Below, in pieces: positions 6,771 through 32,055 of a DNA stretch of 64,000 nt. How positions within the stretch are numbered: the stretch's first letter is position 1; every line of letters starts with the position of its first letter. A model generated the notes under the pieces. The model was not told where the DNA came from. It saw only the letters and a list, made by a program, of their open reading frames with translations, and did not search any database. The translations under genes were made by a program, and so were the position numbers. Source of the DNA: Panax quinquefolius (Eukaryota > Streptophyta > Magnoliopsida > Apiales > Araliaceae); contig CM035170.1 in the NCBI GenBank assembly GCA_020205615.1, forward strand, positions 7,496,311-7,560,310, in the 5' to 3' direction.

Positions 6771-7850
6771 TTATGAAATTTCGTCCTCGAAATTAGGGTA
6801 CATACCTGGTATGACGAAGAGGTGAGGATACCTTGAGTTTATTTCAGATTCTAATTCCCAAGTTATTTCCTCAACATCGTGGTTTCTCCACAAAATTTTA
6901 ACTTGAGGTATAACCTTGGAGCGTAGAATATGTTCCTTCTTATCCAAGATTTGAACAGGAACCTCTTCATACGTTAAATCTTCCGCTATTTCGTCTGGTT
7001 CTAACTCAATAATGTGGTTCGGGTCCTCCACATATTTACGTAACATGGATATGTGAAAAACGTTATGAACACGAGACATACTTGGTGGTAAAGCAAGTCT
7101 ATAGGCTACATTTCCTACTCGGTCAAGGATTTCAAATGGGCCAATGAATCGAGGATTGAGCTTTCCTCTCTTTCTAAATCTTGTAACTCCTTTCCATGGA
7201 GCCACACGTAACAACACATGTTCTCCAACATTGAATTCCACGTCCTTTCGATGAAGATCAACACAACTCTTTTGTCGATCTTGTGAGGTTTTTATACATT
7301 GGCGGATCATTTGAATCTTCTCCGTAGTCATACGTACTAATTCGGGTCCCAACAACATTGCTTCACCAACCTCATCCCAACATACTGGAGAACGACACTT
7401 GCGTCCATACAACGCCTCGAATGGAGCCATGCCGATATTTGCTTGATAACTGTTGTTGTAGGAGAATTACACTAATGGCAAGAACTTGTCCCAACTTCCT
7501 TTGATGTCAAGGACACAGAGTCTTAATAGATCCTCAAGAGTTTGAATATTCCTCTCTGATTGTCCGTCCGTTTGAGGATGATATGCCGAACTAAATCGTA
7601 AATCCGTGCCCATAGCTTTTTGCAAACTAACCCAAAATCGTGAAGTGAATATTGGGTCTTGATCAGAAACTATGGATACTGGCATACCATGCAGTCGTAC
7701 AATCTCATTTATGTAAATACGAGCAAGACATTCAAGTGTATAAGTTTCTCGTATAGGTAAGAAATGAACAGATTTGGTCAATCTATCAACAATGACCCAA
7801 ATCGCATCAATTCCTTGAGAAATCTTGGGAAGACCAGTAACGAAATCCAT
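6771..7850 (-). pseudogene. E1 integrase core, C-terminal region and chromodomain
   Basis: Reading 7850 to 6771 in one frame gives the integrase catalytic region, starting MDFVTGLPK (first Asp), then SDQDPIFTSRFW (second Asp) and QSERNIQTLEDL (Glu), so the DDE triad is present. A TAA at 7467-7469 interrupts where relatives read Glu in LVEFSYNN. The frame then continues through MAPFEALYGRKCRSPVCWDE and the conserved [20 protein letters not shown]. It ends with a chromodomain (VKILWRNHDVEEITWELE) and a stop at 6771. Chromodomains at this position direct integration to marked chromatin in chromoviruses. With its single stop this is one of the better-kept pieces of E1. Confidence 0.88.
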
Positions 7851-8573
7851 GGTAATGTGCTCCCACTTCCATTATGGAATTTCAAGTGGTTGCAATGGAC
7901 CTTTTGGCACTTGATACTCCGCCTTGACTCATTGATAAGTTAAACACCTTGAGATAAACTCCGCTATCTCTCTTTTCATATTGCTACACTAAAATGTATG
8001 TCGAAGATCACGATACATTTTGGTACTCCCAGGATGGATTGCAAACAGTGTGTTGTGCGCCTCCATCATGATCTTATACTTCAAATCAGAGTAATTAGGA
8101 ACACAAAGTCTGGAGTTGACTCTAAGTATTCCTTCTTCATCGATTCTTGCTTCCGGAATAGCACCTTCTTGCACTTTCTTCTTCATGCGCATCAGATTCA
8201 GGTTTGTAGCTTGAGCAGCTTTAACTTTATCAATTAAAGTCGGTTCTACTCGTATATTTGCCATCATCACGTGGGTCCCTGGAGTCTTTATCTCTATTTC
8301 TATCCTTTGCAAGTCATACAAAATAGGCCTTTGCGTTGACAATATCGCACTCGTACCCGCATATGATCTTCTACTCAATGCGTCGCCTACCACGCTTAAA
8401 CTTTTCGGGATGGTATTGAATGGTATGATCATAATCTTTTAACAGTTCAAGCCAACGTCATTGCCGAATGTTGAGTACCTTTTGGGTGAAGAAATATTTG
8501 AGGCTTTTATGATCCGTAAATATCTCCACATTCTCCCCATACAAGTAATGCCTCCAAATTTTAAGTGCGAAGA
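7851..8573 (-). pseudogene. E1 RNase H end and integrase zinc-binding region
   Basis: The open stretch 7989-8432 contains DALSRRSYAG, the usual end of Gypsy RNase H, a variable linker, then LRVNSRLCVPN and the start of the HHCC integrase domain (AHNTLFAIHPGSTKMYRDLR). The second half of that zinc domain is past a stop near 7989 and reads RCLTYQ where relatives have RCLTCQ, so a metal-binding Cys is lost. The upstream end at 8573 is cut by insertion of solo LTR S1; the same reading resumes at 11112. Confidence 0.82.
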
Positions 8574-11111
8574 TGTGACGCCCCCAAAATTAGGTATACA
8601 TCACCCATCTTGAGTCGCCAGATACATGGTACATAATTCAAATACAACTTAATAATACAATTGTCGTGTATAATACAACAAAACATAAACTGTGAGTTTG
8701 AATACAAATATTGTCTACTAGAGAGTATACAAACTCAAAAGGAGTCCTCATTATAATTATTATCACACTATTTCACAGAATAGTGAGGACTACTAATGCA
8801 CCATCTATGACCATCACTCTGTTCCCCGACTAGTCCCTGCTACGTTCTCATTTCCTGTAGAGAACAGTGAAAGAAAGGGTGAGCTCAACTAGCCCAGTAA
8901 GAAATATTATGACTAAGATAACGCATAATAAATTATCGTTAGCCTTCAACAGTGTTAAACTGATACAATATAACAATCATCAAGTTTAACTGTAGCGGAA
9001 TAAGCAATCCATTAGAAGAGTCAAGTAGAGAATAAAATCTACTATCTTCTATGATTTAAAAGGTTTTTCATCACTTTTATCGCCGAGACTTAGCTTAATA
9101 AATAATCCACATCATAAAATCATCCCTGCACTATAGGCCAAGGATATTCTTTAGTATCATGACCACGAATTATCCATGCACCACGGGCCAAAGATAATCA
9201 TGTTTTCATCAACGGTCCTGATCATGCCATAAAACAATTCATCTTTGCACCCTTGGCCGAAGAGAATCCATAGCCATAATCATACCAAAAACTGTCCATC
9301 AATGCACTACGGGCCAACGAGAGGACTTTTTTCACATCATTTGTAACATTACTAAGTAATGATTATATCGAATAATCCTCGGTCATAATCATACCAAGTC
9401 CATCTATGCACTACAAAATACATATGACTTTCAACATAATATAAACATGAGGTTGATGACAATGATATACTGAATTCAATAAAACAAGTTCAAGAATTAA
9501 TTTATCCGAGAACTAATAACGTCCAAATTGTCAACATAATACTTCTTGTAGAGTAAAATTCAAGAATGCTCGTAAGAATATTTCCATGAAAAGATCTTTG
9601 GATGAAGCGCAAATATCAAGGATATTCCACTAATTTCATGGAGTATAGAAGTCAAAACTTTAACCAACCGAGTATAATAAAGAATGGAATAACAAAAGAA
9701 ATCACCATGCATGCGGTGCTTGCGATGTATAAAGTTATTCCAACGAGAATAATAATAACGGAACCAGTCGGTAAAATTTGCAAGCCGGGATGTGTTCCAT
9801 GAATAATAAAGAATGGAATAACAATGAAATCACCATGCATGCGGTACTTCACATAGACGAGTTATTCCAACAAAATAATAATAATCGGAACCGAGTCAAA
9901 GAAATTACGCGCAAGCGATGTGTTCAGCGAATAATAAAGAATGGAATAACAACAAAATCACCATGCATGCGGTATTTGGCGCAGACAAGTTATTCCAACG
10001 AATACTAAATAACGGAACCAGGTCAGCGTAATCGCACCGCAGAGATATTCCAACGTAATAATAAAGAATTGAATAACGTAAGAATTTCACCAAGTATAGG
10101 GTAGCTCATGATATCTGAGTTATTCCAACGAATGATAAAGAATGGAATAACGAAGTTCTCTTCATGAATACAAAAGAAATAATACCCCTACGAGTACAAC
10201 AAATAATATTCCCTACCTTAAGAAGAAGAAAATCTTTGGATATATGAGTAGTGAAGTAGCGAATACTTTTCTTCTTTCTCTCTATAGTTTATCTCTCTGA
10301 GTTTCAAAGTGATTTCGTAAGAAATAATGAAGGAATGAGCTTCTATTTATAGAAAAATGGATCTGCGTAAGAACTAACTCATGAACGGTCCGTATTGATT
10401 TACTTTAATCGGACGGTCCATATTTAAAGCAAAATCTTTTAAATAAAATATAATATATTCTATTTATAATCTAATAAAACGAATAACTTTATAAAAGATT
10501 TTACTATGCAAATACTATCTGCAGCCTTATGCAAATACTATGCATAATAAAATATAATATATTCTAATTATTGTCTAATAAAATAGATAACTTTATAAAA
10601 GTATTCTATTTTATATAAAAGATTTTACTATTAGCCTAATAAAACGAATAACTTTATAAAAGTATTCTGCTTTTATATAAAATGCTTTTCTGCTTTTATT
10701 ACATTAATAATACCAATAAAACAAAAACCGAAAGACTTATCACATAAGCATCAATAATCAATACCGTGTGCTACTATGCAACCACGCGTATTACTATACT
10801 TTTACTATCGAGTAGTTCAACAGTATTAATGGTAAAACTTCCGCCGTTATTTTCAATAAAATATTTTTGTTGTTTTCTCAATCCGACAATAATTTTGTTG
10901 TTGGGTCCACCAATGATTGTGCCGTCGTACGGATATTCTCCGATAAAAAGAATATTCCCCGACTAATCGAATATTATACAACAACTTGCATACTTTTCAA
11001 AATTTATAAATACTACCCACAACTATAACATTATATCATATCCACACCATAATATTCAAAAAATTATTTCGAGAAAATTAAATATTTATTCATAAAATCT
11101 GGGGTCTCACA
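8574..11111 (-). mobile_element. Solo LTR S1 inside E1 pol
   Basis: This 2.54-kb LTR begins TGTGACGCCCCCAAAATTAG and ends GGGGTCTCACA on the plus strand. It is flanked by perfect 5-bp duplications GAAGA (8569-8573 and 11112-11116). Removing it together with one duplication restores the RNase H reading found uninterrupted in E5 (about 50800-50815). It has the family arrays and a TATAAATAG box on the minus strand (10343-10351). No internal domain belongs to it, so it is a solo LTR. The region 10380-10720 holds imperfect repeats of AATAAAACGAATAACTTTA not seen in the E1 LTRs. Confidence 0.95.
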
Positions 11112-11500
11112 GAAGACAACAGCTGCCAACTCTGGATCATGAGTATGATAATTCCTCTCATATTCTTTGAGTTACCGAGAGGCATAGGCTATGACTTTTC
11201 CATGTTGCATGAGAACACATCCTAACCCTTTGCCCGATGCATCACTGTAGATGACAAATCCTTTTGATCCAGATGGTATTGCCAGAACAGGTGCTGAAAT
11301 GAGTCTCCTCTTGAGTTCTTGAAAACTCTTCTCACATTCCTCGGTCCAACCGAATTTTGTATCTTTTCGAGTCAGCTGAGTTAATGGAGTAGCGATTCGA
11401 GAAAACCCTTCTACGAATCTCCGATAATAACCAGCTAAGCCGAGAAAGCTACGTATTTCGGTCACTGATTTAGGTTTCTCCCAGCTTTGTATTGTTTCTC
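11112..11500 (-). pseudogene. E1 RT thumb / RNase H fragment
   Basis: Read on the minus strand it gives [20 protein letters not shown] (the RT thumb/connection segment of Gypsy pol), [20 protein letters not shown], then the RNase H start [20 protein letters not shown] with the first catalytic Asp. A stop near 11172 replaces Gln after YASR. The upstream end stops abruptly after TTTGTATT at about 11495 and is followed by an LTR fragment. About 125 bp of E1 pol present in E5 (about 51175-51300) is missing between this point and 33858. Confidence 0.85.
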
Positions 11501-12138
11501 CCAGGTCGTTCCCAGGAAAGAGGGGGCTTTCCGATAAAGATTTCTCCTTATTGGTGCGCAATTAGGTGACCAAACCTCTCATTGACAGAACTTCTAGACA
11601 TTGTTAATATTGCAAATAATAATATGAATAACTTTACCGTCACAATTATTGATTTAATAATATATCATATAATGCAGATGATACTGTGATAATAATTGAA
11701 TCAATAATATGAGAGATATGATGCAACAATTATTGTAGCAATAATTGAGTATAACTGAGTGACTTCTCACGTAAGCATCAATAATCAATACCGTGTGCTA
11801 CTATGCAACCACGCCAGACATCGCATTTTTTACTACCGAGAGTAGTTCAACAGCTTTTAACGGTAACACTTTCACAAGTTATAAAAGATAATTACATCAT
11901 TTTCTAAATACGACAATACTTTCGTTGTGGGGTCCACAAATAATTGTGCCGTCATACGGATATTCCCCGACAAAAAGAATATTCCCCGACCAAATGAATA
12001 TTTTATAACAACTTGCATACTTTGCAAAATTTATAAATACTACCCACAACTATAACATTATATCAAATCCACACCATAATATTCAACAAAATATTTTGAG
12101 AAATTTAAATCTTTATTCATAAAATCTGGGGTCTCACA
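11501..12138 (-). repeat. E2 3' LTR, truncated
   Basis: It enters the LTR in the middle, at CCAGGTCGTTCCCAGGAAAG, and runs to GGGGTCTCACA at 12138, followed directly by the polypurine side ATCCCCCCTCCTTATG. The first 1.8 kb or so of the LTR is missing, along with about 125 bp of flanking E1 pol, which points to one deletion across the insertion junction. Confidence 0.85.
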
Positions 12139-12149
12139 ATCCCCCCTCC

Positions 12150-12870
12150 TTATGAAATTTCGCCCTCGAAATTTACGTACGTACCTGGTATGCCGAAGAG
12201 ATGAGGATACCTTGACTTCATTTCAGATTCTAACTCTTGAGGTATAACCTTTGAGTGTTGAATACGATCCTTCTTATCCAAGATTTTAACACGTATCTCC
12301 TCACACGTTAAATCTTCTGCTATGTCGTCTTGTTCTAATTTAATAACGTGGTTCGGGTCGTCCACATATTTACGTAACATCGATACGTGAAAAATGTTAT
12401 GAACACGCGACATACTTGGCGGTAAAACGAATCTATAGGCCACAGTTCCTACTCGATCAAGGATTTCAAATGGGCCAATAAAATTGAGGGTTGAGATCTC
12501 CTCTCTTCATTGATTATTGCTTCTAGAATAACGCCCTCTTGAACCTTCTTCTTCACATTCATCAGCTCTGAGTATGTAGCTTGAAGGACTTTTAACTTTA
12601 TCGATTAAGGTCGATTCTACTCGTATATTCGTTACCTTCACGTGGGTCCCTAGAGTCTTTAACTCTATCTTCATCATTTGTAAGTTATACGAAATGAGTC
12701 TTTGTGTTAACAACATCGCACTCATAAACGCATACGATCTTCTACTCAATGCGTCAACTACCATGTTCACTCTTCCATGGTGATATTGAATGGTCGTAAC
12801 CTTCAACAGCTCGAGCCATTGTCTTCGGCGCATTATACGTTCGTTTTGGGTGAAGAAATACTTGAGGGTT
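12150..12870 (-). pseudogene. E2 chromodomain and RNase H-integrase linker remnants
   Basis: 12150-12443 encodes the integrase C-terminal segment [20 protein letters not shown] and a shortened chromodomain that lost its VKVLWRNHD strand and joins IPQ directly to [14 protein letters not shown]. At about 12490-12510 the sequence jumps to the RNase H/integrase linker (12507-12833, with VDALSRRSYAF), so the DDE core and zinc domain are gone. At about 12870 it jumps again to the protease-RT linker, so the RT is gone too. Confidence 0.82.
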
Positions 12871-13573
12871 TTAGAAATAGGTTTTGTATTGGGGTCAATA
12901 CCAAATTCAATTTCACGCTCTAGTGGTAGGCTAAGAAGTTTTCAAGAATACGTCATGAAATTTATTAACAATAGAAATATCATTCAAAACTGTGACTCTC
13001 ATCCAAGACTTGGATAACACGTCACATTGATACCTATCAACTTGCCATCGTTATTCACGACGTCCCCTGCGGATATTCTAGCTTCGGTGTATTCCAAGAC
13101 TTGGAAGTCACCAGCGAAAGGCTCAGGGCTCTTTACTTATGGCTTGATATGACAATGATTGACTTTAGTGGTTTGGTTGCTTGAATTCGCATAACAGGTT
13201 GGTTAGGAATATGAAAGTTAACCACCTTACGAAAAGCATGATAAGTAGTTAACCAATCGATTTCTAAAATCACATCAAAGGCAAGTATTTTCAAAGAGAT
13301 AAGATCGACAGGTAACGTGAAAGTGTCGATTTAAATTAAACTAAACTTATAAACAGTGGATGTAATGAAGGTTTCTCCCAACAGAGTTTCAATAGATAAA
13401 TCAAAGTCTAATTTCTTAAGAGCCAAGTTCATACGTTGAACACAACTAGGTGAAATACAAGAGTGGGTAGAACCGGTATCGAATAAGGTATAGACTTCGC
13501 AAGAGTTTATGATTAACTTACCCGTGATAACTTTGTTCGGGTTCCTCGATAAACGCCTCTCACTTAAACTCAC
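12871..13573 (-). pseudogene. E2 protease and linker with a foreign 135-bp patch
   Basis: The aspartic protease reads YTLFDTGSTHSCISPSCVQR (13331-13573), with the catalytic DTG intact. The region downstream of it, matching E1 34500-34800, is broken by frameshifts. Positions 13001-13135 do not match any other copy and replace about 70 bp of normal sequence; read on the minus strand the patch is an open coding-like stretch. The normal sequence returns on both sides (ATCAAGCCATAA at about 13139 and the ATTCAAAACTG side at about 12981). Confidence 0.75.
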
Positions 13574-13583
13574 TCAATTTGAC

Positions 13584-14321
13584 TTATGCAGGACATCCTT
13601 TAAGCGTCACCATCCCAGTTGGACTTAACTTTGCTATAGGGTATATTCCACCCTTAATTGCTTCGTCACATTCCTGATCTATGATTTGAATCATTACTCC
13701 CCGATCCATATCGAATTGGGATTGATCGCTTTGCACAGGGTAATTCCGAACTCGATGTTGGATTCTCCCAATTGTTGTCCAAAAAGCAAAATCCATTTCA
13801 TCTATTTTGACTTTATTAGATCGGACATCTTTTTCGACAATATCAACGCATCGTGCGGCTTTTACCCACACATCATCTATTCTCCTTCGTTCAATTGTTT
13901 CTGCTTTCATCAGAACTTTGATCATAACATTCTTAGATTCCAGCTCTAATATCTTATACTCTGCCAAAGAGTGCTTCATTCAAGCATCGCATTATCGGTA
14001 AACACAGCTTTTTGTTGTTGTTTCTCTTTTGCTCCACGCCGCTTCTTCTTGATTTCGCTCTTCTAACTCATGAATAAGATTTTGTAATTCTAAATTTTGA
14101 TCATAAAATTCTTCTAATAAATTCTCCTCAGGTTCCTCTTCTTCCTCACTCTCAGCAGCTACCTCTGCAACTAGCTCGGGTGCAACTATTAGTTCTTCAC
14201 GTACCACGTAGATATCTCTAATTTCTTCTTCGTCTGACATCATATTAACCTGGTTAGTGATTAAAAGTGTCTCAACGGTCTCATGTGCTTCATTGCTTAT
14301 CTCAATATTTTCGGATGCCAT
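13584..14321 (-). pseudogene. E2 ORF1: acidic coiled-coil-like protein in place of Gag
   Basis: The start at 14321 (MASENIEISNEAHETVET) matches the Gag N-terminus of E1 (MTSENVEISNGAHETVES). After about 20 residues similarity stops. Next comes an acidic tract (ESEEEEEPEENLLEEFYDQ), a heptad-like stretch (LELQNLIHELEERNQEEAAW), and a charged region up to about 13660. The end, KLSPTGM near 13620, matches the post-knuckle linker KSSPAGM of E1. There is no WW-containing Gag core and no CCHC knuckle. Two in-frame stops lie at 13992-13994 and 13980-13982; apart from these the frame is open for about 245 codons. I do not recognise the inserted protein. It could be a captured host gene segment or a Gag too diverged to see. 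Confidence 0.65.
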
Positions 14322-14508
14322 TTGCAAATACTGCCACAAAATAAGGGTTAATTTACATATCACATATTATCCCTATACTTTGACCTACCAATTAAATACC
14401 AAATAAACTTACGTTGGTCATACTAGCGAAAGAATTCCCCGTCTCTCCCCTCCTAGTCCTTGTCTCACATCTCAGCCAGGGATCATATCCCTAAGATTTT
14501 ATACCAAC

Positions 14509-15160
14509 TGTGACACCCCCAAAACAGGTATACATCACCCATCTTGGGTTGCCAAATACATGGTACACAATTCAAATACAACTTAATTATACAACAGTCG
14601 TGTAAAATACGACAAAATATAATCTAAGACTTTTTAAAAAGAATATTGTCATCTAGACAATATACAAACTCAATGGAGTCCTCATTACATTTATTGTCAT
14701 ACTATTTAACAGAATAGTGAGGACTACTAATGCTATCATCTGGACCGTCACTCCGTTCGTCGACTAGTCCCGTCTACGTTCTCATTTCCTGAAGAGAACA
14801 TTGAAAGAAAGGGTGAGCTCAACTATCCCAGTAAGAAATATTATGACTAAGGTAATGCAGAATAATTTATCGTTAGCCTTTAATAGTGTTAAACTGATAA
14901 AATATAACAAACATCAAGTTTAACTGCAGCAGAACAAACAATCCATTAGAAGAGTCAAGTAGAGAATAAAATCTACTATCTTCTATGATTTAAAAGGTTT
15001 TTCATCACTTTTATCGCTGAGACTCAGCTTAATAAATAAACCACATCATCCCTGCACTACGGTCAAAGATATTCATTAGTATCACGACCATAAATTATCC
15101 ATGCACTACAGGCCAAGGATATTCGTGTATTCATCAATGGTCATGATCATGCCAACAACC
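14509..15160 (-). repeat. E2 5' LTR, first part
   Basis: It begins TGTGACACCCCCAAAACAGG beside the E2 primer site and matches other family LTRs up to about 15160 (ATGCCAACAACC). There it switches abruptly to the interior of an E3-type LTR (AGGCAACACTCTTATGGCAA). The rest of the E2 5' LTR continues at 23581-24386 and 33522-33857; about 0.7 kb or more is missing. Confidence 0.82.
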
Positions 15161-18100
15161 AGGCAACACTCTTATGGCAACACTTTTATTACCTGAAAGG
15201 AATTGTGAAGCAAAAAGGGTGAGCACAACTAGCCCAGTAAAGAATATCATGACTAAAGATAATTAAATTATCAATAGCTTTCATCAATAATAAATCAGAG
15301 ATTTAGAACATATGGTAGATGATAAAATTTTTCAACCATAGTTGCAGCGGAACGGACAATCCATTAGAAGAGTCAAATAGACCATTAGGTCTATTATCTT
15401 CTCCATGTTAAAAGTCCACCAATAATATTTTATCCCTGTAACATCAATCAACAATTCCTGTCCACAATCATATGAATAACTTATAATCATAATTGTCATT
15501 CGGAATTCCCTTTTCGCACCCAGGACGAAGATGATTCTCATCACCTATCTTCACCTGAAATATCACAAATCATGGTTATACCAAATCACAATTCTTGCTC
15601 ATAATCATACTAATAAATTCATCTTTGCACTACAATAAAGATATACAATCAGAAAACCAATAATCCGAGACTCGACAACAAATAATCCACATCATCGAAT
15701 CACCCCTGCACTACGGCCAAGGATATTCGTTAATATCACATCAATGAATTATCCATTCACTACTACGCCAAGGATATTCATTATTATCACATCCATGAAT
15801 TAATATTTCATTCTTTGAGACTCACTTTCAATAATTAATCCACATCATTAAATCATCCCCACTTGCTACGTGCCAGGATATTCTTTAGTATCACGACCAC
15901 GAATTATCCATGCACTACGGCCAAAGATAATCGTGTTTTCATCAACGGTCCTGATCATGCCATAAAACAATTCATTTTTGCACCATTGGCCGAAGAGAAT
16001 CCATAGCCATAATCATACAAAAAACTGTCCATCAATGCACTACGGGCCAATGAGGACTTTTTCATTAGTATCACAACCACAAATTATCCATGCACTATGG
16101 GCCAAAGATAATCGTGTTTTTATCAACGGTCCTGATCATGCTATAAAACAATTCATCTTTGCACCCTTGGCCGAAGAGAATCCATAGCCATAATCATACC
16201 AAAAACTGTCCATCAATGCACTACGGGCCAATGAGGACTTTTACCACATCATTTGTAACATTACGGTCATGATTAAATCGAATAATCCCTGGTCATAATC
16301 ATACCAAGTCCATCTATGCACTACAGGCCACATATGACTTTCAACATAATATAAACATGAGGATGATGACAATGATATAAGAATTAAATAAAACAAGTTC
16401 AAGAATTAGTTTATCCAAGAACCAATAACGTCTCATTTACTCGTAACTAGATTATTTTCATAAAAAAATACCAAATCAGTCCCAAAAATTATTATTTTCT
16501 GGGATTAAGCATAATATAATCCCATATTGAACATATATTTTTCTCGGAATTTTTAAAATTCATTTACTATTTTTCAAAAAATAATTTCTAATTAATTCCT
16601 TAAGAAATTAGCTACCTTAAGTTTAACTCCAGAAATTCCCAAATCTTAGCAGGATCTTACACATGTTAACGTGAGCTTCCAGTTTAAATTTCATGGTTAT
16701 CGGAGTTATAGAACTCCTAAGTTATAAGCGTTTTTTTCGGAAAAACCTAAATATTGAAATGGTCATAACTTGCTCATTTTAAGTCGGAATGAGCTCAGTT
16801 TTGGACAGGAGGTACTTTATTCCATATACTTTCATATCCCAAAAGGACAGAATTATTCTCATAAATTAAGTGGCCGAAACAGCCCTTTTAAATTTCTGGG
16901 CAGTAGCATTTTTCTCTTTTGCAGCTTTTGACTCCTTTGCTAAAGTCAGTCCACACGAAAATCTACAACACCTTTTATAGTGATTCCACTTGGATAAGTT
17001 ACAAAACTCATAGATCTAACTCTAGAACTTGACCTCACTAAAAAATTCAAAATATAATAGGAGATATGGTCAATTGAATTTTATGTTCCGTTTTCACCAA
17101 AATCTGATTTTCAACTCTTTGTGATTTCTAAGAAACTTTCATGTTTTCACATAATAACCAACATAACTCATCATAAAACTTTCTAATACTCAAAACATAT
17201 GAGGACATCATGTATACAGATCATTTCCACAATTTAATAAGGAATGAATACACATGATCATTCACCATGCTTGTGGTAATCCACATAGACACGCTATTCC
17301 AACAGAATAATAAAGAATAGAATAACAGGAGGATTCACCATGCGTGCGATATAGACTCGCATGCATGGGTTATTCTCAATGAATAATAAATAATGGAACT
17401 AGGTCCCACAGTAACGCATGCATGTGGATATTACGATGAATAGTAAAGACGGAACCAGTCCCACAGTAAAATGAATGCATGTGATATTCCAACATAATAA
17501 TAAAAAATGGAATAATGTAATAATTTCACCAAGTATAGGGTAGCTCGTGTATATACAAAGTTATTCCAATGTAATAATAAAGAATGGAATAACAGAAGTT
17601 CTCTTCATGGATAAGAAAGAAATAATACTCCCTACCATAGAAGAAACTGGATATAGAAGTAGTGAAGTAGCAGAATACTTTTCTTCTTTCTCTCTATAAT
17701 AATTGCTCTATAGCTTTTGTGAATTGGTGAGAAATGAAGGAAGAATGAGCTTCTATTTATAGGAAAATATAGTTTCGATAATTGCACGTTTTGGGGCTCG
17801 AAAAATTACAGTACAATACCTCCAACTTTTCTTTCATTTTTAATTTAGTCCTGCAAGTATTATCAAACTTGCACCACCTCCCATAATAGTAAATAATGTG
17901 AATCAATAGTTCAATCATGTGAATCAATAGTATAATCATGTGAAAAAATTAATTACAGTATAGTACCTTCAACTATACCTCTATTTTTAACTTAGTCATG
18001 TAAGTATTATCAATCTTGCACCAACTCCCTTAATAGTACATGAATGTGATTCAATAGTATCCACATGTGAACAAATAGTTATATAAACATGTGAATTAGT

Positions 18101-18941
18101 AGTAATTAAGTGCTCATTTATCCGATAAATTACCCAATTTATCAATATAACCCCCAAACATCAATTATCATCGAAATAGATGTTGATTTCCATTAACACT
18201 AATAATCCCAACACAATGGAACTATCAATTTCATTTTTAATCAACACAACTTATTCATCATTAATATTATAACTCACAATATTTAACAACCAGGTCATTC
18301 CCAGGAAAGAGGGGGCTTTCCGATAAGGATTTCTCCTTATCGACGCCAAGATTAGGTGACCAAACCTCTCCTCGATGTAACTTCTAGACATTGTCAATAT
18401 TGTAAATAATAATATGAATAACTTTGTCATCTCAATTATTGATTTAATAATAATAAATATTATGCAGATGATACCGTGACAATAATTGAATCAATAATAT
18501 GAGAGATATGATGCAGCAATTACTGTAGCAATAATTGAGTATAACCGAAAGTGACTTCTCACGTAAGCATCAATAATCAATACCGCAGTGCTACTATGCA
18601 ACTACCACGCCATTACTTATACTTTTAACACCGGTGTTTCAGCAGCTTTAACGGTAACACTTTCACCGTTATTTTTATAAAAGATAATTACGTGCTGTTT
18701 TCTAACTACGACAATACTTCCGCCAGGGGTCTACTAATGATTGTGTCGTCGTACGGATATTTCCTGACAAAAAGAATATTCCCCGACCAAATGAATATTT
18801 TATAACAACTTGCATACTTTACAAAATTTATAAATACTACCCACAACTATAACATTATATCAAATCCACTCTATAATATAAAAAATAAAAAAATTATTTC
18901 GAGAAAATTAAATATTTATTCATAAAATCCGGGGTCTCACA
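15161..18941 (-). repeat. E3 5'-truncated LTR (left copy)
   Basis: It aligns with 19800-23580. It carries an extra segment of about 800 bp (16430-17240) not found in E1, E5 or E6 LTRs, GCACTACGGGCC repeats at 15700-16330, and TATTCCAAC/AATAATAAAGAATGG repeats at 17290-17600. A TATAAATAG box lies on the minus strand at 17753-17761. The 60- to 70-codon frames inside are not genes. Confidence 0.85.
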
Positions 18942-19280
18942 ATCTCCCCTCCTTATGGAATTTCGCCCTCGAAATTTACGTACGTACCTGGTATTCAAAG
19001 AGATGAGAATACTTTGCTTTCTTTTCGGATTATACCTTCCTGGTTATTTGCTCTGTATCATGATTTTCCCATTACTCATCTCCTGTATTTCAGATATTAT
19101 TCTAGAATATATCTTCAAAACAAAGGTCAATTAACATATCACAAATTGTCAATTTATCAAGTAAAAAAATTTTCGGCTTAGGTAAGTCACACACTAGCGA
19201 AGTATATTACTCGTCTCTCCCCTCCTAGTTCTAGACTCATATCTCCGCCAAATGACCATATCCCTAAGCTCGATATCAAA
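18942..19280 (-). mobile_element. E3 residual interior: PPT, chromodomain tail, leader, PBS
   Basis: Positions 18942-19075 align with the end of chromovirus pol (GAAATTTCGCCCTCGAAATT is the coding end just inside the 3' LTR). From about 19080 the sequence matches the leader between the 5' LTR and gag of E1 (GTCTCTCCCCTCCTAGTTCT shared with 36327 onward). Everything between, about 5 kb in an autonomous element, is absent. The left and right borders are intact LTR edges, so the cis signals for priming and packaging may have been kept. Confidence 0.85.
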
Positions 19281-22200
19281 TGTGACGCCCCCAAATTAGG
19301 TATACATCACCCATTCGAGTCGTCGATATATATAGTACAAAATTCGAATACAACTTCATTTATATTAATCATTGAAATGTCAGATAGAATACGACCATAG
19401 TTAACTGTGAGTTTTAATACAAATATATGTAACTCTCATGGTGCCTCGACCACAACCTTACAATGGTGAGTCTTCTCTTGACATATAACTATCTCCACTG
19501 TCTCCAAATGAATATTATATTTCAAATAAACTCCAAGATCATATAGGTAGTGCCCGTAGATATACTCAGCAAGTGGATGCGCATAACCCTGTCTTATGAT
19601 AACACGAGGTTGTATGTCATTAGACATCTTGTGTGATAGTGGCAAAACACCCTTCCAAAGTTGGGTTCGCCTCACCCTATTTGATTCACCAAATATAACT
19701 ACTAAATGATGTATAGAATACAACACACTTTTCTATACTGTTTAGGGAGAACCTCCACAGCTAGAGACCACTGTTATATTCCCCTGTTATCCCCGATCGA
19801 CCAGGCAACACTCTTATGATAACACTCTTATTACCTGAAAGGAATTGTGAAGCAAAAAGGGTGAGCACATCTAGCCCAATAAAAAATATCACGACTAAAG
19901 ATAATTAAATTATCAATAGCTTTCATCAATAATAAATCAGAGATTTAGAACATATGGTAGATGATAAAACTTTTCAACTATAGTTGCAGCGGAACGAGCA
20001 ATCCATTAGAAGAGTCAAATAGACCATCAGGTCTATTATCTTCTCCATGTTAAAAGTCCACCAATAATGTTTTATCCTCAGTAACATCAATCAACAATTC
20101 CTCATCCACAATCATATGAATAACTCATAATCATAATTGTGATTCTCAATTCCTTTTCGCACCTGTGACGAAGATGATTCTCATCACCTATCTTCACCGA
20201 AATATCACAAATTATAGTTATACCAAATCACAATTCCCCGCTCATAATCATACTAATAAATTCATCTTCGCACTGAAGCCAAAGATATACAATCAGAAAC
20301 CAATAATGCTAAGACTCAAACAAACAAATAATCCACATCATCGAATCACCCCGCACTACTACCAGGATATTCGTTATCATCACATCAATGAATTATCCAT
20401 GCACTACTACCAAGGATATTCATTATTATCACATCCATGAATTAATATTTCATTGCTGAGACTCAGCTCAATAATTAATCCACATCATTAAATCATCCTT
20501 GCACTATAGGCCAAGGATATTCTTTAGTATCACGACCATGAATTATCCATGCACTACAGGCCAAAGATAATCGTGTTTTCATCAACGGTCCTGATCATGC
20601 CATAAAATAATTCATCTTTGCACCCTTGGCCAAAGAGAATCCATAGCCATAATCATACCAAAAACTGTCCATCAATGCACTACGGCCAATGAAGACTTTT
20701 TTCATTAAGATCACAACCACAAATTATCCATGCACTACGGGCCAAAGATAATCGTGTTTTTATCAACTATCCGATCATGCTATAAAAACAATTCATCTTT
20801 GCACCCTTGGTCAAGAGAATTCATAGCCATAATCATTCCAAAAACGTCCATCAATGCACTACTGCCAATGAGGACTTTTACCGCGTCATTTTGTAACATT
20901 ACTACCATGATTATACCGAATAATCCTCGGTCATAATCATACCAAGTCCATCTATGCACTACAGCCACGATGACTTTCAACAAAATATAAATATGAGGAT
21001 GATGACAATGATATAAGAATTCAATAAAACAAGTTCAAGAATTAATTTAACCAAGAACTAATAACGCCTCATTTACTCAGAATTAGATTATTTTCATAAA
21101 AATACCAAATCAGTCCCAAAATTATTCTTTTCTCGGATTAAGCATAATATAGTCCCATATTGAACATATATTTTTCTCGGAATTTTTAAAATTCATTTGC
21201 TATTTTTCAAAAATTAATTTCTAATTAATTCCTTAAGAAATTAGCTACCTTAAGTTTAACTCCAGAAATTCCCAAATCTGAGCAGGATCTTACACATGTT
21301 AACGTGAGCTTCCAGTTTAAATTTCATGGTCATCGGAGTTATAGAACTCCGATTATAGCTTTTTTGTCGGAAAAACTGAAATATTGAAATGGTCATAACT
21401 AGCTCATTTTAAGTCGGAATGAGCTCAGTTTTGGACAAGAGGTACTTTATACCATATACTTTCATGTCCCAAAAGGCCAGAATTTTTATCACAAATTAAG
21501 TGGTAAAACATCCCTTTTAAATTTCTCGGCAAGAGCATTTTCTCTTTTTTCAGACTTTTGACTCCTTTGCTAAAAGTCACCCACACGAAAATCTACAACA
21601 CCTTTTACAAAGATTCCAATTGGATAAGTTACAAAACTCATAGATCTAACTCTAGAACGTGACCTCACTCAAAAATTCAAAATATAATAGAGATATGGTC
21701 AATTGAATTTTATGTTCCGCTTTTACCAAAATCGATTTTCAACTCTTTGTGATTTCTAAGAAACTTTCATGTTTTCACATAATAACCAACATAACTCATC
21801 ATAACACTTACTAATACTCAAAACATATGAGGACATCATGTATACGAGATCATTTCACAATTTAATAAGGAATGAATACACAGGATCATTCAACCATGCA
21901 TGTGGTAATCCACATGCATGTTTATTCCAATGTAATAATAAAGAATGGAATAACAGGAGGATTCACCATGCGTGCGATAGATCGCATGCATGTGTTATTC
22001 TCAATGTAATAATAAATAATGGAACTAGGTCCCACGTAAACGCACGCACGTAATATTCTACGTAATAGTAAAGACGGAACCAGTCCCACAGAAACGCATG
22101 CATACGATATTCCAACATAATAATAAAAAATGGAATAATGTAAGAATTTCACCAAGTATAGGGTAGCTCGCATGATACAAAGTTATTCCAACGAATAATA

Positions 22201-23580
22201 AAGAATGGAATAATGAAGTTCTCTTCATGGATAAGAAAGAAATAATACTTCCTACCTTAGAAGAAACTGGATATAGAAGTAATGAAGTAGCAGAATACTT
22301 TTCTTCTTTCTCTCTATAATTTCTCTCTATAATAATTGCTCTATAGCTTTAGTGAATTGGTGAGAAATGAAGGAAGAATGAGCTTCTATTTATAGGAAAA
22401 TATAGTTTCGATAATTGCACGCGTTTTGGGCTCGAAAAATTACAAGATAATACCTCCAACTTTTCTTTCATTTTTAATTTAGTCCTGCAAGTATTATCAA
22501 ACTTGCACCACCTCCCATAATAGTAAATAATGTGAATCAATAGTTCAATCATGTGAATCAATAGTATAATCATGTGAAAAAATTAATTATAGTATAGTAC
22601 CTTCAACTATACCTCTATTTTTAACTTAGTCATGCAAGTATTATCAATCTTGCACCAACTTCCTTAATAGTACATGAATGTGATTCAATAGTACCCACAT
22701 GTGAACAAATAGTTATATAAGCATGTGAATTAGTAGTAATTAAGTGCTCATTTATCCGATAAATTACCCGATTTATCAATATAACCCCCAAACATCAATT
22801 ATCATAGAAATAGATGTCGATTTCCATTAACACTAATAATCCCAACACAATGGAACTATCAATTTCATCTTTAATCAACACAACTTATTCATCATTAATA
22901 TTATAACTCACAATATTTAACAACCGTGTCGCTCCCTGTGAAAGAGGGGCTTTTCGATAAGGATTTCTCCTTATTGGCAGCCAATTAGGTGACCAAACCT
23001 CTCCTCGATGTAACTTCTAGACATTGTCAATATTGTAAATAATAATATGAATAACTTTGTCGTCTCAATTATTGATTTAATAATAAATAATATTATGCGA
23101 TGATCTTTGTGACAATAATTGAATCAATAATATGAGAGATATGATGCAAAGAATTCATCGTAGCAATAATTGAGTATAACCGAGTGACTTCTCACGTAAG
23201 CATCAATAATCAATACCGCAGTGTGCTACTACGCAACTACGCCAGACGTATTATATACTTTTAACACCGGGTGTTTCAACAGCTTTAATTCGGTAACACT
23301 TTCACCGTTATTTTTATAAAAAGATAATTCTGTCATTTTCTAACTACGACAATACTTCCGTTGTGGGGTCCACCAATGATTGTGTCGTCGTACGGATATT
23401 CCCCGACAAAAAGAATATTCCACGACCAAACGAATATTTTATAACAACTTACATACTTTGCAAATTTATAAATACTACCCACAACTATAACATTATATCA
23501 AATCCACTCCATAATATAAAAAATAAAAAAATTATTTCGAGAAAATTAAATATTTTTTTCATAAAATCTGGGGTCTCACA
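19281..23580 (-). repeat. E3 LTR, full-length copy (right)
   Basis: This 4.3-kb LTR is nearly twice the length of the E1 LTR. Its first 520 bp (19340-19800) are unlike any other LTR here and hold the open frame at 19436-19726. After that come GCACTACGGGCC arrays (20340-20960), the E3-specific segment (21060-21860), the TATTCC repeats (21900-22220), a minus-strand TATAAATAG (22385-22393) and the family end. Confidence 0.88.
19436..19726 (-). CDS. Unidentified 96-codon open frame inside the E3 LTR
   Basis: Read on the minus strand from ATG at 19726 it gives 96 residues with balanced composition (MLYSIHHLVVIFGESNRVRR at the start, CQEKTHHCKVVVEAP at the end), unlike the low-complexity frames of the neighbouring repeats. 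I recognise no domain. It lies in the part of the E3 LTR that is absent from other LTRs in the window; the left LTR has lost it, so no second copy is available to test conservation. It could be a captured host exon or chance. There is no evidence of expression. Confidence 0.3.
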   Translation of the reverse strand: MLYSIHHLVVIFGESNRVRRTQLWKGVLPLSHKMSNDIQPRVIIRQGYAHPLAEYIYGHYLYDLGVYLKYNIHLETVEIVICQEKTHHCKVVVEAP

Positions 23581-24386
23581 TAGTACATTTAACTATACCT
23601 ACATTTTTAACTTAATCATGCAAGTATTATCAATCCTACACCAACTCCCTTAATAGTACAAGAATGTGATTCAATAGTACACACATGTGAACAAATAGTT
23701 ATATAAGCATGTGAATTAGTAGCAATTAATTGCTCATTTATCCAATAAATTACCCGACTGGTTAGTATAACTTCTAGACGTCAATTAATACCAAAATAAA
23801 TGTCAATTTCCACTAACACTAATAATTCCAACACAATGGAACAACTTTTATCAAAAAATTTATTTTTGAAATTTCGAAGTTTGACTTTTTTTGAAAAAGT
23901 CTACTGTTGACTTTTTTGACCAAAAAGTCAACCCCAAAAAATTTTGTGTTTATAGTCTATTTTTACTAATTTCATCGTTCCGGACTGAAATATCACGTCC
24001 GCGTCTCCAAATTCAACTCCGAACTCAAATTTGATTTTTAATAACATTCATCATTAATATTATAACTCACAATATTTAACAACCTGGTCGTTCCCAGGAA
24101 AGAGGGGGCTTTCCGATAAGGATTTCTCCTTATTGGAGCGAAATTAGGTGACCAAACCTCTCCTTGACAGAACTTCTAGACATTGTCAATATTGCAAATA
24201 ATAATATGAATATCTTTGCCGTCACAATTATTGATTTAATAATATATCATATATTGCAGATGATATTGTGATAATAATTGAATCAATAATATGAGAGATA
24301 TGATGCAGCAATTACTGTAGCAATAATTGAGTATAACTGAGTGACTTCTCACATAAGCATCAATAATCAATACCGTGGTACTCTTC
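23581..24386 (-). repeat. E2 5' LTR, second part
   Basis: It resumes in the middle of an LTR at TAGTACATTTAACTATACCT and matches the E5 LTR from about 48030 to 48800, including the TTGACTTTTTT / AAAAGTCAA palindromic tract at about 23880-23940. It ends at ACTCTTC where E4 begins; the remainder is 33522-33857. Confidence 0.82.
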
Positions 24387-24892
24387 TGTAATACCCGATA
24401 AAAATAAATAAATAAATAAATATTGAATAATTAATATTATTTTGTTTTAAAATATTTTAATTGGACTTTATCTTTTATTTGGGTCAAACTAGTCACTTAT
24501 TTTGGGCTAAAAATTTAACAAGTGTTGGATAAATTAATTTAGTAAAAGTTGGGCCTTAAAACTAATTGGATTTAATTTATATGTGGGTAATAATAAATCC
24601 TATTAAAATAGAGTAAATAAGATATATTAATTAATAAATAAATATATACTAAAACCTAATCAAACATGAGATGCAAATCAGAAAGAAAAGAAAAAGAAGA
24701 AGCCCGTACCGTTATTATAGAGAAAGAGAGAATTCATGAACAGAACCAAAATAGGTAATTTTTATTTTTGTTTGCGTGTGGTGCATATATACTATAAATG
24801 ATGGAGAACCCAGATATTATATATTATTATATATATATAGTTTATATGTTACTAAGTTATTAGATTATTATGTAAGAACCTAAAGGGAATTG

Positions 24893-24951
<59 letters not shown>

Positions 24952-26429
24952 ATAACGTATTGTTGGCACTGCTGCATTCTTATTGGCTGTTATAGTGTTA
25001 GTTTCGTATTATATATATATATATATAATATTTTAATAATTATTGGGCCATTAACTTATAAACGAGATTAGTAAATTAAATTGAAGTTGTGTATATTAAT
25101 TTAAATTAATTAATTTTGTTGACATAGTTGTAAAAGTTTTTAATAATAAATTTAATATTATTATTTTATTAATTATTGGATTGTAATAAAATCTTATTAA
25201 ATTATTTAGATTGAATCTGAGGAGTTTAAATGAGTTTTGGAATATAAATTTATTACATTGCATTATCGATTCCGTACGGATTCTGTACTCTTTTCAATGA
25301 GACTCTTTTATTTTTAATTTGTTCGCTTTAGTTATTCGCTTTGAAATTTAGTATTGTCTCTCATAATTATTCCTTGTCAATTCATTATGATAGTTTTGTT
25401 TTGGCGTTCATAATTGAACTCATATTTGTACTCTTTAGACTAGTCCAACATGTCTAAATTTATTTTGATATTTATAGTAATGTACATGTTAGAATTTTTT
25501 TGGACTTTGAGTTGATGATTCATTTCATTTAACATGTATGTATATATTAGAACCCTTTTGTGTTGATATTGTATCGCATGTGTTGTGACATGGTATCCTT
25601 GTTAGAATATATCATAGGGTATACCGAGCTATAACCACTGTGGGGGTACCACAGTGCATGTCCTCTTAGCACCGAGGCATGACACCTTCCGCGGGCGGTG
25701 TGATCACCCATCACTGGCGTCTCCATTTGTGCTCCGTTGGGAGTTGGCCATTTGGTGTTTTGTTGTGGGAGGCGTATGGGTCGACCCTAGTTTTCTGCCT
25801 TACTTACTCGTGGATTGGTGATGTTTGTGCCAAACACGCCTTCTGATTTTACATGCATTGGATTCGCGGTCCAATGTGTGTGACTTATTGTGGTGGCATT
25901 ATTTGATTTGCCTTATGTGGCATTATTTGACTTGCACTGTGTAGCGAGGTATATTTCTGTTTTATTCGAGCTCGATATGAAATAACACCCAGCTATTTGA
26001 TTCAGCCTATTATTTCGTTGTGTTAGTTTTGTTCGTTTCGTTTCAGTTAGTTTCGTTTTATTTTATTTAATTGAGTTAATTATTTCGGTTCATTAATTGT
26101 ATTCTATATCCGTCATTGGGCATTTGGCTCATGTCTTTGTGTTTTTCTTCCTAGCAGTAATCGGGGGATCAAGGGCAAGTGTGATGAGAGCTCCATTCAT
26201 CCAATAGTTTTGATATATTTCGTTAGGCTATGATACATTGATTTATTTGGAGTTGTAATAGTTATTTCAGATTGTGGTTTGAGCCAGTGTGACATTTATT
26301 ATGGTTTGTCTTAAGACATTTAATTAGTTTAAGACTATTCTTTTGTGGATTAGAGCCTTGCTATTAAATTCATCAGTTTTGTTATGTTTTGAGTAACCTC
26401 TCTTTCTATTTTGGAAAGGGGGTGTCACA
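24387..26429 (+). repeat. E4 5' LTR
   Basis: It begins TGTAATACCCGATAAAAATA and ends GGGGGTGTCACA. It contains AAATAAATAAATAAA near the start, a (TA)n microsatellite (24894-24949) and a GC-richer block at about 25620-25800. TATAAATG at 24793 is a possible TATA box. Confidence 0.92.
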
Positions 26430-26609: not shown

Positions 26610-27569
26610 ATGGCTCGTAGATCCGCCAGAGTTGTTGGGAGGCGAGGCAACAATAGGGGAAGAGGTGAGGGTCAGCCCAATGAGCAACCTAATAATCAGA
26701 TAAATGCTCAGTTGGCTACCTTGGTGAATCAGGCAGTGAATCAGGCTTTACCTCAGTTGGTGGCACAGGTTGTACAGGCAATGCAGCAGCCGCCACCAGA
26801 AATTCCTGAACTAGAGAATTCGGGAAATAATGGTCAACATGCAAATATGGAGGAAGGGAATGCAGATGGTCTTGATCAACAGGTGGTTCCAATGTATGTG
26901 TGGTTGGAAAGGTTTCAAAAGCAGAAACCACATGCATTCAGTTCAGCTCCAACTCCAATTGATGCAGAGAATTGGATTGCCCACTTAGAGAAGATTTTTG
27001 ATGTGTTGGGGTGCTCGGATAATCAGAAAGTGTTGCTAGCTGCTTACAAGCTGGAAGGGGATGCGCAGAGGTGGTGGAAAGCGTTGAAAACAACAAAGGG
27101 TGATGGTTTTGTTGAGGCACTTAGTCAAGGCGAGTTTTTTGTGAGGTCTTTATCGCACATGATTTCTTCCAAATTACCGATAAAGAGGCCTATGCTAGAG
27201 AGTATCTGTCGATTCGGCAGAAAGATGATGAGTCCATCACAGACTTCATAACGAGGTCTACTAGGTTGGCAGGCTTTTATGGAACCTCGGCGGGACTCGC
27301 AATGAAATAAAGCAAGAGAAGTTTAAGTGGAGGATTCATTATAGGTATCGACAACATCTCATTAACAACAAGTTTATAGACGTGTCAGCAGTGGCCAATG
27401 CGGCCAAGAATATTGAGATGGAGCGACAGGATTTTCGGTTTTCTAAACCGGATGGGAGTCGAAAGAGGGATAGAGATGACCAGCAGGGTCAAACTTCAGT
27501 TCAGCATGGGAGAAATCAGGGTGGTCAGTTGAATAGGAATCGTGGTGGCCAACAGGGAGAAGGCGTGGC
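26610..27569 (+). pseudogene. E4 Gag, frameshifted
   Basis: Gag forms the virus-like particle that packages element RNA. The start at 26610 (MARRSARVVGRRGNNRGRGE) follows the primer site by 160 bp. A Gln-rich N-terminal part precedes the retrotransposon Gag core with WIAHLEKIFDVLGCSDNQKV and AAYKLEGDAQRWWKALK. At about 27110-27150 the frame shifts; the true continuation (AREYLSIRQKDDESITDFIT) is in another frame up to a stop at about 27307, and a third frame (27382-27588) carries the Arg/Gly/Gln-rich tail. The CCHC knuckle is encoded just downstream, in the same open frame as pol. Confidence 0.9.
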
Positions 27570-30500
27570 GTGGTCGAAATCAAAATAGGGTTATCGGCAG
27601 ATGCCTCGGCAAGGGCGAAATCATCACCGCAGCCTACCTTGGAATGGTCGAAATCGTCGGCAGAAGGGCAAAGATCGTCGTCAGGGCGTAAATCGGTGGG
27701 TCGTTATCCGAGACCAGCTGGTGGGGGTAACCCAAATCTCATTCCGATAGCTCCTTGTGCTATTTGTGGGGCTATTCATCCGGGGAGGCAGTGTCATAGA
27801 CTCACAGGTGCATGCTTCTTGTGTGGACAGATGGGTCATATTGCTAGGGATTGTACCGGTCCACGTGAGAATGGTGGAGGTGGTGATAATGGTGGCAATG
27901 GAGGTCAGCGTCAGGGTGGTCGAGTGTTTGCCTTGACATATAACCAGGCGACAGGTGCACTAGGTACTGTTTCTGGTACTCTTTTAGTTGGCAATAGTGA
28001 GGCGTCTATTTTGTTTGATACGGGTTTTACTCATTCTGTTGTTGCTTGCTCGGTCTTTTTGTTCGGCACCGGGTGTGCCATCTCGATTTTAGATTCTGTT
28101 ATGTCTATTTCTACCCCGATGGGGACTTCTGTTGTTATTTCTGATTTGTATCGAGGGTGTCCGATAAGTTTTGGGGATAAGATCCATAACGTTAATATTC
28201 TTCGGATGAGTATGCACGATTTTGATGTCATTCTTGGGATGGACTGGTTGGATAAGCACCAGGCCACTATCAATTGTCAGGCGAAGAAGGTTATATTTAG
28301 AGATGTGAAGTCTCCAGAATTCGTGTTTCAGGGTTCACAACCGAGTAGGGTGTTGAAGTTAATTTCATCTTTGAAGGCTGGGAAATTGGTAGCAAAGGGT
28401 TGTGAGGAGTATTTGGCATTTGTGAAAGATACCTCTAAGGGTGAGTCTCGTATTGAGGATGTTCCAATTGTTCGTGATTTTTCTGATGTGTTTCCTGAGA
28501 AGTTGTCAGGGTTGCCACCACAACGGGAAGTAGAATTTTCTATTGAGCTTGTTCCTGGTGCGGAGCCTATCTCTAAGGCGCCGTATCGGATGGCACCGTT
28601 GGAGTTGCAGGAGTTAAAGGAACAGTTGAAGGAACTGTTAGATCGTGGTGTGATTTGGTCGAGTGTTTCGCCGTGGGGTGCTCCAGTTTTGTTTGTGAAG
28701 AAGAAGGATGGGTCTATGAGGCTGTGTATAGACTATAGAGAGTTGAACAAAATAACCATCAGGAATCGGTATCCATTGCCGAGGATTGATGACTTATTTG
28801 ACCAACTTCAAGGGGCAAAATATTTTTTGAAGATAGACTTGAGGTCAGGGTATCATCAGTTGAGGGTGAGGGATGGGGATATCCCTAAGACAGCTTTTCG
28901 TACTCGATATGGGCATTACGAGTTTCTGGTGATGCCATTCGGGTTGACTAACGCTCCGGCGGTGTTCATGGATATAATGAATCGGGTGTTCAAGGAGTAC
29001 TTAGACCAATTTGTTATTGTATTTATTGATGATATTTTGGTTTACTCCAAGTCTAAGGAAAAACATGAGGAGCATCTTCGCACAGTGTTGGGGATTTTGC
29101 AGAAAGAGAAGTTATATGCTAAATTCTCTAAATGCGAGTTTTGGTTGGAGCAGGTTGCATTTTTGGGCCACGTTGTTTCTGCCGAGGGCATTAATGTGGA
29201 TCCTGCGAAGGTTGAGGCTATCACTAAATGGCCGAGACCTACTACAGTGACAGAGATTAGGAGTTTCTTGGGTTTGGCAGGGTATTATAGGCGGTTTGTG
29301 GAAGGGTTTTCCTTGCTTGCCTTGCCATTAACCCAATTGATGAGAAAGGGTGTGAAGTTTGTGTGGAATGAGGAGCGTGAGAAGAGTTTCGAGGAATTAA
29401 AGAAACGACTTGTGACAGCTCCTATACTTGCATTGCCGTCGGGGACTGGAGGTTACCAGATTTATAGTGATGCTTCTAAGAAGGGTTTGGGGTGTGTTTT
29501 GATGCAACACGGTAAGGTGATTGCTTATGCTTCTAGGCAGCTTAAACCTTACGAGGTGAATTACCCCACACATGATTTGGAGTTGGCAGTGGTGATCTTT
29601 GCCTTAAAGATTTGGAGGCATTATTTGTATGGAGAGACTTGTGATATCTTCACCGATCATAAAAGTCTTAAATACATTTTCACTCAGAAAGAGCTTAACA
29701 TGAGGCAGAGGCATTGGTTGGAGCTTCTAAAAGATTATGATGCTAGAATTCAGTATCACCCGGGGAAGGCAAACGTGGTTGCAGATGCTCTTAGCCGGAA
29801 GAGTTCAGGGAGTGTAGCAGCCCTTATTACACAACCTCAGCTTATTTCGGATATGGATTGGCTAGAGTTGGAGTTGTATGTACGAGGTTCAGATGGGCAT
29901 TTGGCGGGTATGAGAGTTGAGCCCTCTCTTATCTCGCGGGTCAAAGAAGCTCAAAAAGAAGATGGGGAGTTGTGGAGTATGACGCAGAATCTAGAGGAGG
30001 GAAAGCAGACCGAGTTTCGTATTGATGACCATGGTGTGATTTGGTTGGGTGAACGGTTGTGTGTACCGTCGGATCCAATCATTTGAGAGGCTGTGTTGGT
30101 TGAGGCTCATAGTTCACCATTTTCTATTCATCCTGGTTCTACAAAGATGTATAGGGATTTGAAGAAGAATTTTTGGTGGAATGGGATGAAATGAGACGTG
30201 GCTGAATATGTTGGGAAGTGCCTCACTTGTCAACAAGTGAAGATAGAACATCAACGAGCTAGTGGTTTGCTGCAACAGTTAGACATTCCAGTGTGGAAGT
30301 GGGAGGATATCACGATGGATTTTGTGACTGGTTTGCCGAAGACTTTCAGGAAGAATGATGCCATATGGGTAGTAGTGGACCGGTTGACCAAATCGGCACA
30401 CTTTTTGGCTATCCGTGAGGGTTACTCGGTGGATAGGTTAGCACAAATCTTTCAGCAGGAGATTATTAGACTTCATGGTACTCCGGTGTCTATTGTTTCA

Positions 30501-31997: not shown

Positions 31998-32055
<58 letters not shown>

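Follow-up and report, generated by a model that had tools for sequence, protein, structure and literature searches.

LARD- and TRIM-type elements carry little or no pol, reach high copy numbers and keep the cis signals. To our knowledge, known non-autonomous LTR elements retain Gag, carry ORFs beside gag-pol, or lack coding capacity altogether. TR-GAG elements are LTR retrotransposons whose only ORF is gag (PMC8704663). Extra ORFs occur in Grande, RIRE2, Retand, SIRE, and Athila, where they supplement gag-pol and usually lie between pol and the 3' LTR (PMC7264820; PMC6317226), and in LTR elements of bdelloid rotifers, where a third ORF stands beside gag and pol and in some types encodes a coiled coil (PMC5408684); these statements follow the portions of the papers that were available. 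In Panax, with a genome of 3.6 Gb, the dominant Ty3 elements include the PgDel elements and show structural variation, as described in the accessible parts of two accounts (PMC5567358; PMC6181221).

The element considered here, E2, lies in a stretch of 64,000 nucleotides (the window) and shares something with each of these systems. Like TR-GAG elements as presented in the excerpted source, the E2 type is non-autonomous, has LTRs and one ORF from the Gag position, and is presumed to be mobilized in trans, but its single ORF is not gag. The E2 type resembles LARD/TRIM elements in its scant or missing pol, its high copy number, and its retained cis signals; the difference is a long ORF, kept in two subfamilies. 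A family-wide ORF lacking known relatives recalls Grande, RIRE2, Retand, SIRE, and Athila; however, going by the sections available for those elements, their ORFs are additions, whereas that of E2 substitutes for the core of Gag in Gag's own frame. Similarly, the bdelloid elements, so far as the partial text describes them, offer a parallel in modular ORF gain and in the coiled coils of some types, but the E2 ORF is present instead of gag, not beside gag and pol. The Gag-bearing relatives of E2 probably belong to the PgDel family; the consulted portions of the PgDel accounts (PMC5567358; PMC6181221) contain neither a Gag-replacing ORF nor the word "non-autonomous". In the open-licence literature, no description of a coiled-coil ORF in Gag's place was recognized for E2's family. 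Here a pair of subfamilies, with thousands of probe matches, has a non-Gag ORF in Gag's own frame.

Layout of E2 and the borders of its foreign segment

E2 is encoded on the minus strand in the order LTR, primer binding site (PBS), leader, ORF1, remnants of protease, RNase H, and integrase C-terminus, polypurine tract (PPT), and partial 3' LTR (Table 1). LTRs with TG..CA ends, a PBS, and a PPT identify it as a Ty3/gypsy LTR retrotransposon; the pol order PR-RT-RH-IN is complete in one related copy, L041, and the remnants in E2 follow the same order without reverse transcriptase (RT). The subfamily is probably a Tekay/Del-like one within Ty3/gypsy; in relatives a Pfam Chromo match follows integrase (E = 0.0009), but its 19.6 bits fall short of the curated cut-off of 25.1. 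The PBS presumably matches initiator tRNA-Met; that of L074, a copy with the ORF only, is TGGTATCAGAGCTTAGGG.

Table 1. Features of E2 in window coordinates.
Feature	Position	Strand	Basis
5' LTR, TG...CA ends	14509..18941	-	self-alignment; termini read
Primer binding site, TGGTATAAAATCTTAGGG	14489..14506	-	read in sequence
Leader, common to the Gag-bearing element	14322..14508	-	86% identity across 14520-14241
ORF1 head, 27 codons of Gag origin	14241..14321	-	DNA alignment
Foreign segment: acidic tract and predicted long coiled coil; contains the two stops	13634..14240	-	alignment, profile comparison, structure prediction
Gag/protease linker of Gag-element origin; ORF ends inside it at 13584	13551..13633	-	DNA alignment
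Protease remnant; more than one frame matched in many copies	13137..13548	-	DNA alignment and copy comparison
RNase H remnant, fused to protease; RT absent	12540..12962	-	matches of copy L001 converted to window coordinates
Integrase C-terminus/chromodomain-like remnant	12153..12482	-	L001 matches; domain names from Pfam, chromodomain below curated cut-off
Polypurine tract, AAGGAGGGGGGAT	12139..12151	-	read in sequence
3' LTR, start only, broken off at 11501 by sequence of another element	11501..12138	-	self-alignment

The 5' LTR of E2 doubles as the 3' LTR of an upstream unit, and bases 18942-19066 correspond to the PPT side of other copies. The internal piece to which these bases belong (18942-19282; about 340 bases, with a PPT side and a PBS side) is free of coding sequence and flanked by two LTRs, so that E2 is part of a head-to-tail row of LTR-internal-LTR-internal; the unit with this piece as its interior adjoins E2 and is smaller still. 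Elsewhere in the window, 24387-26000 (right end set by the query) and 31407-33094 form a repeat pair of 87.5% identity that flanks a plus-strand Gag-Pol element with ORFs at 26610-30824; the pair probably represents the LTRs of another Ty3 element. No RNA family reaches its gathering score in window positions 7000-24500.

ORF1 runs on the minus strand from 14321 to 13584 and has 245 codons before its terminal stop, including two internal stops; its translation passes from a Gag-like start through an acidic tract and a leucine-rich region to a KLSPTGM linker. Against the DNA of the Gag element in the window (36405-34594), homology begins at the end of the LTR and continues to codon 27 inclusive (14520-14241, 86%), breaks off there, and is back at 13633 in the linker (72%) and at 13548 in the protease (85%); within 14240-13634 no match is better than E 0.33. 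The roughly 200 codons of 13634-14240 are without Gag likeness, and at the corresponding place the Gag element encodes a capsid (Pfam Retrotrans_gag, 3.2e-19) and two zinc knuckles. An earlier note, made from the letters of the sequence, had claimed a swap of the Gag core for an unrelated frame between a Gag-like start and a KLSPTGM linker; the DNA borders at 14240 and 13634, the 27 retained codons, and the linker bear this out.

A strongly diverged Gag might be suspected, given that the segment occupies Gag's place and Gag's first 27 codons are retained. However, neither the window pieces nor the related public proteins P0001-P0004 have any Pfam match above cut-off, and a sequence search of the PDB is likewise negative (best E 0.26). 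The exception is the public protein P0005, in which two CCHC zinc knuckles stand behind the first ~175 residues of the ORF; this fusion may be an assembly chimera. A profile search, named beforehand as a possible refutation, compared 13 family sequences minus the Gag head with nine Gag sequences and returned a probability of 0.2%, against 100% for a control of two Gags versus the other seven. The single long helix predicted for the product and the slow evolution of the relatives' capsid (omega 0.10) also argue against a diverged Gag, which we consider scarcely credible.

The open frame is not coincidental: an open piece of at least 150 codons that passed a text filter is present in 26 of the 73 loci scanned (five duplicates and L039-L041 were left out), 14 of the 26 reaching at least 250 codons, whereas dinucleotide shuffling of three open-piece loci, 3000 times each, never yields a stop-free run above 153. 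A one-off rearrangement is likewise excluded by the many further copies and by 2673 probe matches in the genome. Both stops of E2 fall within or at the edge of ~14050-13980, where the frame, compared by eye, is unlike that of sister copies; since they sit in a frame-shifted stretch, E2 is a damaged family member, so that the in-frame swap with two stops read earlier stands as to frame and stop count and is corrected as to what the stops represent. It is confirmed that the Gag core of E2 has been exchanged in frame, with sharp borders, for a segment unrelated to Gag.

Copies in the genome and a second subfamily

The genome that holds the window comprises 3.57 Gb in 821 contigs. In a DNA search, the best 40 of 5944 candidates were scored, and the 39 besides the window itself are 88-92% identical; with the C-terminal half as a protein query, all of the best 150 of 26096 candidates match. 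A 30-base ORF probe with up to two mismatches hits 2673 places, its reversed control none, so the further copies sought are abundant. On contigs C1 to C24 match coordinates extend to tens or hundreds of megabases, and on higher-numbered contigs they are about 1.1 Mb or less.

After removal of the duplicate loci L009, L010, L014, L017, and L027, 33 distinct window-type copies were compared in pol. The same deletion, joining protease at about residue 347 to RNase H at about residue 115 (numbered on the reference pieces) without RT, occurs in 29; the deletions of L024 and L033 are larger, no pol match follows protease in L028, and L038 is the one copy of the 33 with an RT match within about 1.5 kb downstream. 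Four of five 7-kb stretches show the same layout as far as the 3' LTR, and the fifth (L041) contains all the pol domains. At L042:1-2290 and L043:5471-6887, the 3' LTR of coiled-coil elements directly adjoins the interior of elements that bear Gag or pol. E2 is therefore a member of a high-copy non-autonomous subfamily that has lost RT by deletion in most copies examined; together with the non-Gag ORF, copy number and RT loss support the new subfamily, with its own ORF1 for the Gag core, that had been proposed. Thousands of genome copies carry the gene for a predicted rod protein in place of Gag and probably depend on relatives for movement.

L038 and L041 are the same copy, in which the pol domains are spread over several frames. 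Its foreign segment is 92-97% like those of L039 and L040, and from the protease on it is nearer to Gag elements. When L041 900-2442, from ORF to RT, served as query, the ORF end is covered by L041 alone among the best 40 of 20449 candidates, all 39 remaining matches starting at or past query base 293, in the linker. A pol-bearing subfamily with the ORF was therefore rejected, no second copy among those 40 spanning the join, and L041 is apparently a single mosaic that joins the ORF to pol. The window type may nevertheless have descended from a pol-bearing element like L041.

A second, shorter subfamily shares the ORF. In a genome search with P0003, all of the best 147 of 56311 candidates match; each of 20 fetched loci, chosen by likeness to this one protein, has the ORF between LTRs, and neither RT nor RNase H is found within 1.5 kb downstream in any of the 20. 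Compared with E2, similarity is 71-75% in the leader and 80-88% in a remnant of about 97 bases that abuts the start of the 3' LTR match. A probe for this subfamily hits 1804 places (control 0), a count that may overlap with the 2673. The two subfamilies are separated by a net distance of 11.5%. Second-subfamily copies can follow one another about 5 kb apart on one strand, as in G000 C1:42517468-42537369, which suggests long LTRs and tandem units that share them.

The predicted protein and tests for selection on its frame

AlphaFold2, run with five sequences, predicts a single helix over residues 71-200 (about 130 residues) with disordered ends. The best model has a pTM of 0.29 and a mean pLDDT of 63.2, the top of a range that begins at 45.5 among the five models; within the helix pLDDT exceeds 90 from about residue 81 to 170 and declines to ~64 at the end, with 85 residues at 90 or more. 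In three sequences one heptad register outscores the others in all 42-residue windows, and the heptad score of the whole helix is matched by 6, 0, and 21 of 5000 shuffles, respectively; only 49-51% of the a/d positions are hydrophobic. A single gap, of seven residues, separates the open copies of both subfamilies throughout and leaves the register intact, and two shorter gaps in the ORF vary inside the subfamilies. Foldseek finds no match in the PDB at E <= 0.001. Matches to Cep57, CASP, SMC, crescentin, and other Pfam/NCBIfam families stay below curated cut-offs, as is usual for coiled coils, and were discarded. The E-rich tract and leucine heptads of the first reading reappear as an acidic tract, a leucine-rich region, and one predicted register, and the ORF product is predicted to be an acidic, rod-like coiled-coil protein.

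Inside the window subfamily alone the ORF is under no special constraint. For 37 copies picked by likeness to the ORF (666 pairs), omega is 0.70 in the ORF, 0.46 in protease, 0.64 in RNase H, and 0.73 at the integrase end; 14 copies chosen by protein give 0.55, 0.53, 0.71, and 0.71 in the same order. A second set holds 15 open copies from both subfamilies, with omega of 0.52 between the subfamilies and 0.62 and 0.48 inside them, against simulated neutral values (substitution spectrum of two LTR copies) of 0.73-0.83 between and 0.66-0.84 and 0.68-0.93 inside, with a mean of 0.77. Because only open copies were aligned, the gaps in this set are whole codons by construction and are no evidence for selection; they were dropped as such a sign. 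By ORF block, omega between subfamilies is 0.39, 0.40, 1.89, 0.35, and 0.56 in these 15 copies. The third value belongs to alignment columns 110-160, where dS is low (0.10) and dN higher (0.19), perhaps through recombination or a fast-changing heptad region.

A third set of 59 copies, 39 window-type and 20 second-type, includes broken copies: in-frame stops occur in 32 of the 39 and 12 of the 20, 44 in all. Omega between subfamilies is 0.54 (0.39-0.76) and the net value 0.51 (0.33-0.80); the shifted frames give net dN/dS of 1.07 (0.61-2.22) and 1.09 (0.67-1.92), intervals that the in-frame interval overlaps, reaching also the neutral mean of 0.77. Among the 39 window-type copies omega is 0.48 and 0.77 when the frame is shifted, against 0.71 in the true frame. 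Under simulated neutral drift from four starting copies, the frame stays open over the net 11.5% in 18, 23, 23, and 32 of 2000 runs, and over half that distance in 167-199. For comparison, family omega is 0.18 in RT (10 pairs), 0.10 in Gag capsid (3 pairs), and 0.27 in protease (3 pairs). Taken together, the omega, shifted-frame, and drift results and the comparison with Gag and RT indicate loose constraint on the ORF, if any. Purifying selection across copies, which the earlier note had put forward for testing, is accordingly at most weak: it is suggested by the net value between subfamilies but not by the window subfamily on its own (0.70-0.71).

Probable mode of action and possible origins of the segment

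The favored reading, to which we give a probability of about 0.57, is that the E2 subfamily arose by in-frame exchange of the capsid and zinc-knuckle part of Gag for the coiled-coil segment of about 200 codons, is mobilized in trans, and encodes a product that possibly acts through its coiled coil. PBS and leader are common to E2 and its Gag-bearing relatives and the PPT is similar, which makes mobilization in trans likely; RNA made from the LTR would probably be packaged, copied, and integrated by proteins of Gag-Pol relatives. The deletion of RT in most copies examined and the presence of the ORF in the shorter RT-less subfamily are direct observations. The protein would probably be made from the Gag start codon and, to judge from the structure model, oligomerize by its coiled coil; consisting of the Gag head and the coiled coil, it could act in RNA binding. 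The most tentative step is that the product perhaps aids its own RNA or the assembly of Gag particles. The ORF module is found with pol remnants, without pol, with full pol domains (one copy), and fused to zinc knuckles (P0005). A bolder version, in which the trans-acting protein of a Gag-less parasite joins the Gag particles of relatives or redirects them to its own RNA and the module moves by template switching, appears improbable.

The ORF could instead be a functionless passenger, a relic still open in young copies of an element that is amplified through LTR, PBS, leader, and PPT alone. Near-neutral omega inside the window subfamily, the far stronger constraint on the relatives' Gag and RT, the stops in 44 of 59 compared copies, and the adjoining unit with just ~340 coding-free bases (18942-19282) as its interior all point that way. 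Frames of at least 250 codons are nevertheless held by both subfamilies across a net 11.5%, where 18-32 of 2000 neutral runs would be expected to stay open, and both shifted frames have a net omega above 1, compared with 0.51 for the true frame, albeit with overlapping intervals; we regard the passenger explanation as a possibility of real weight, though below the favored reading of a trans-mobilized Gag exchange.

As to where the segment came from, the foreign sequence matches only itself in the window, apart from chance-level hits at E 0.39, and among 5.8 billion proteins the ORF has eight relatives, ENA entries on short contigs that apparently, to judge from all but P0007 and P0008, belong to the same element family. 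A Gag-capsid control query returned just 11 proteins from this collection, which is thus nearly blind to plants and uninformative on a host donor. Capture of a plant coiled-coil gene by template switching, a host source of the kind that the earlier note had suggested, would be compatible with the sharp borders in Gag's frame and with the lack of similar sequence elsewhere in the window, and it has a precedent in a Ty3 element that gained a domain homologous to plant proteins (orchid AlkB; PMC9289625, in the part of the account available). Pfam, the PDB, and the protein collection contain no host relative, although these are weak tests for plants, and since the searches of the element's own genome score best matches only, a host donor would stay hidden behind element copies; such capture is possible, at less than even odds. 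Derivation from another mobile element or virus (as an unclassified type of ORF), or de novo origin in non-coding sequence, is a tentative alternative: the eight relatives apparently all fall in E2's own family, and most extra ORFs of plant LTR elements are without known relatives according to the sections available (PMC7264820; PMC6317226), but the window holds no donor element.

If the protein acts, the family would show how a parasitic element competes for the particles of another element, and the existence of two subfamilies makes this testable; if it is inactive, what the family offers is an extensive natural record of an almost neutral ORF carried along by a retrotransposon.
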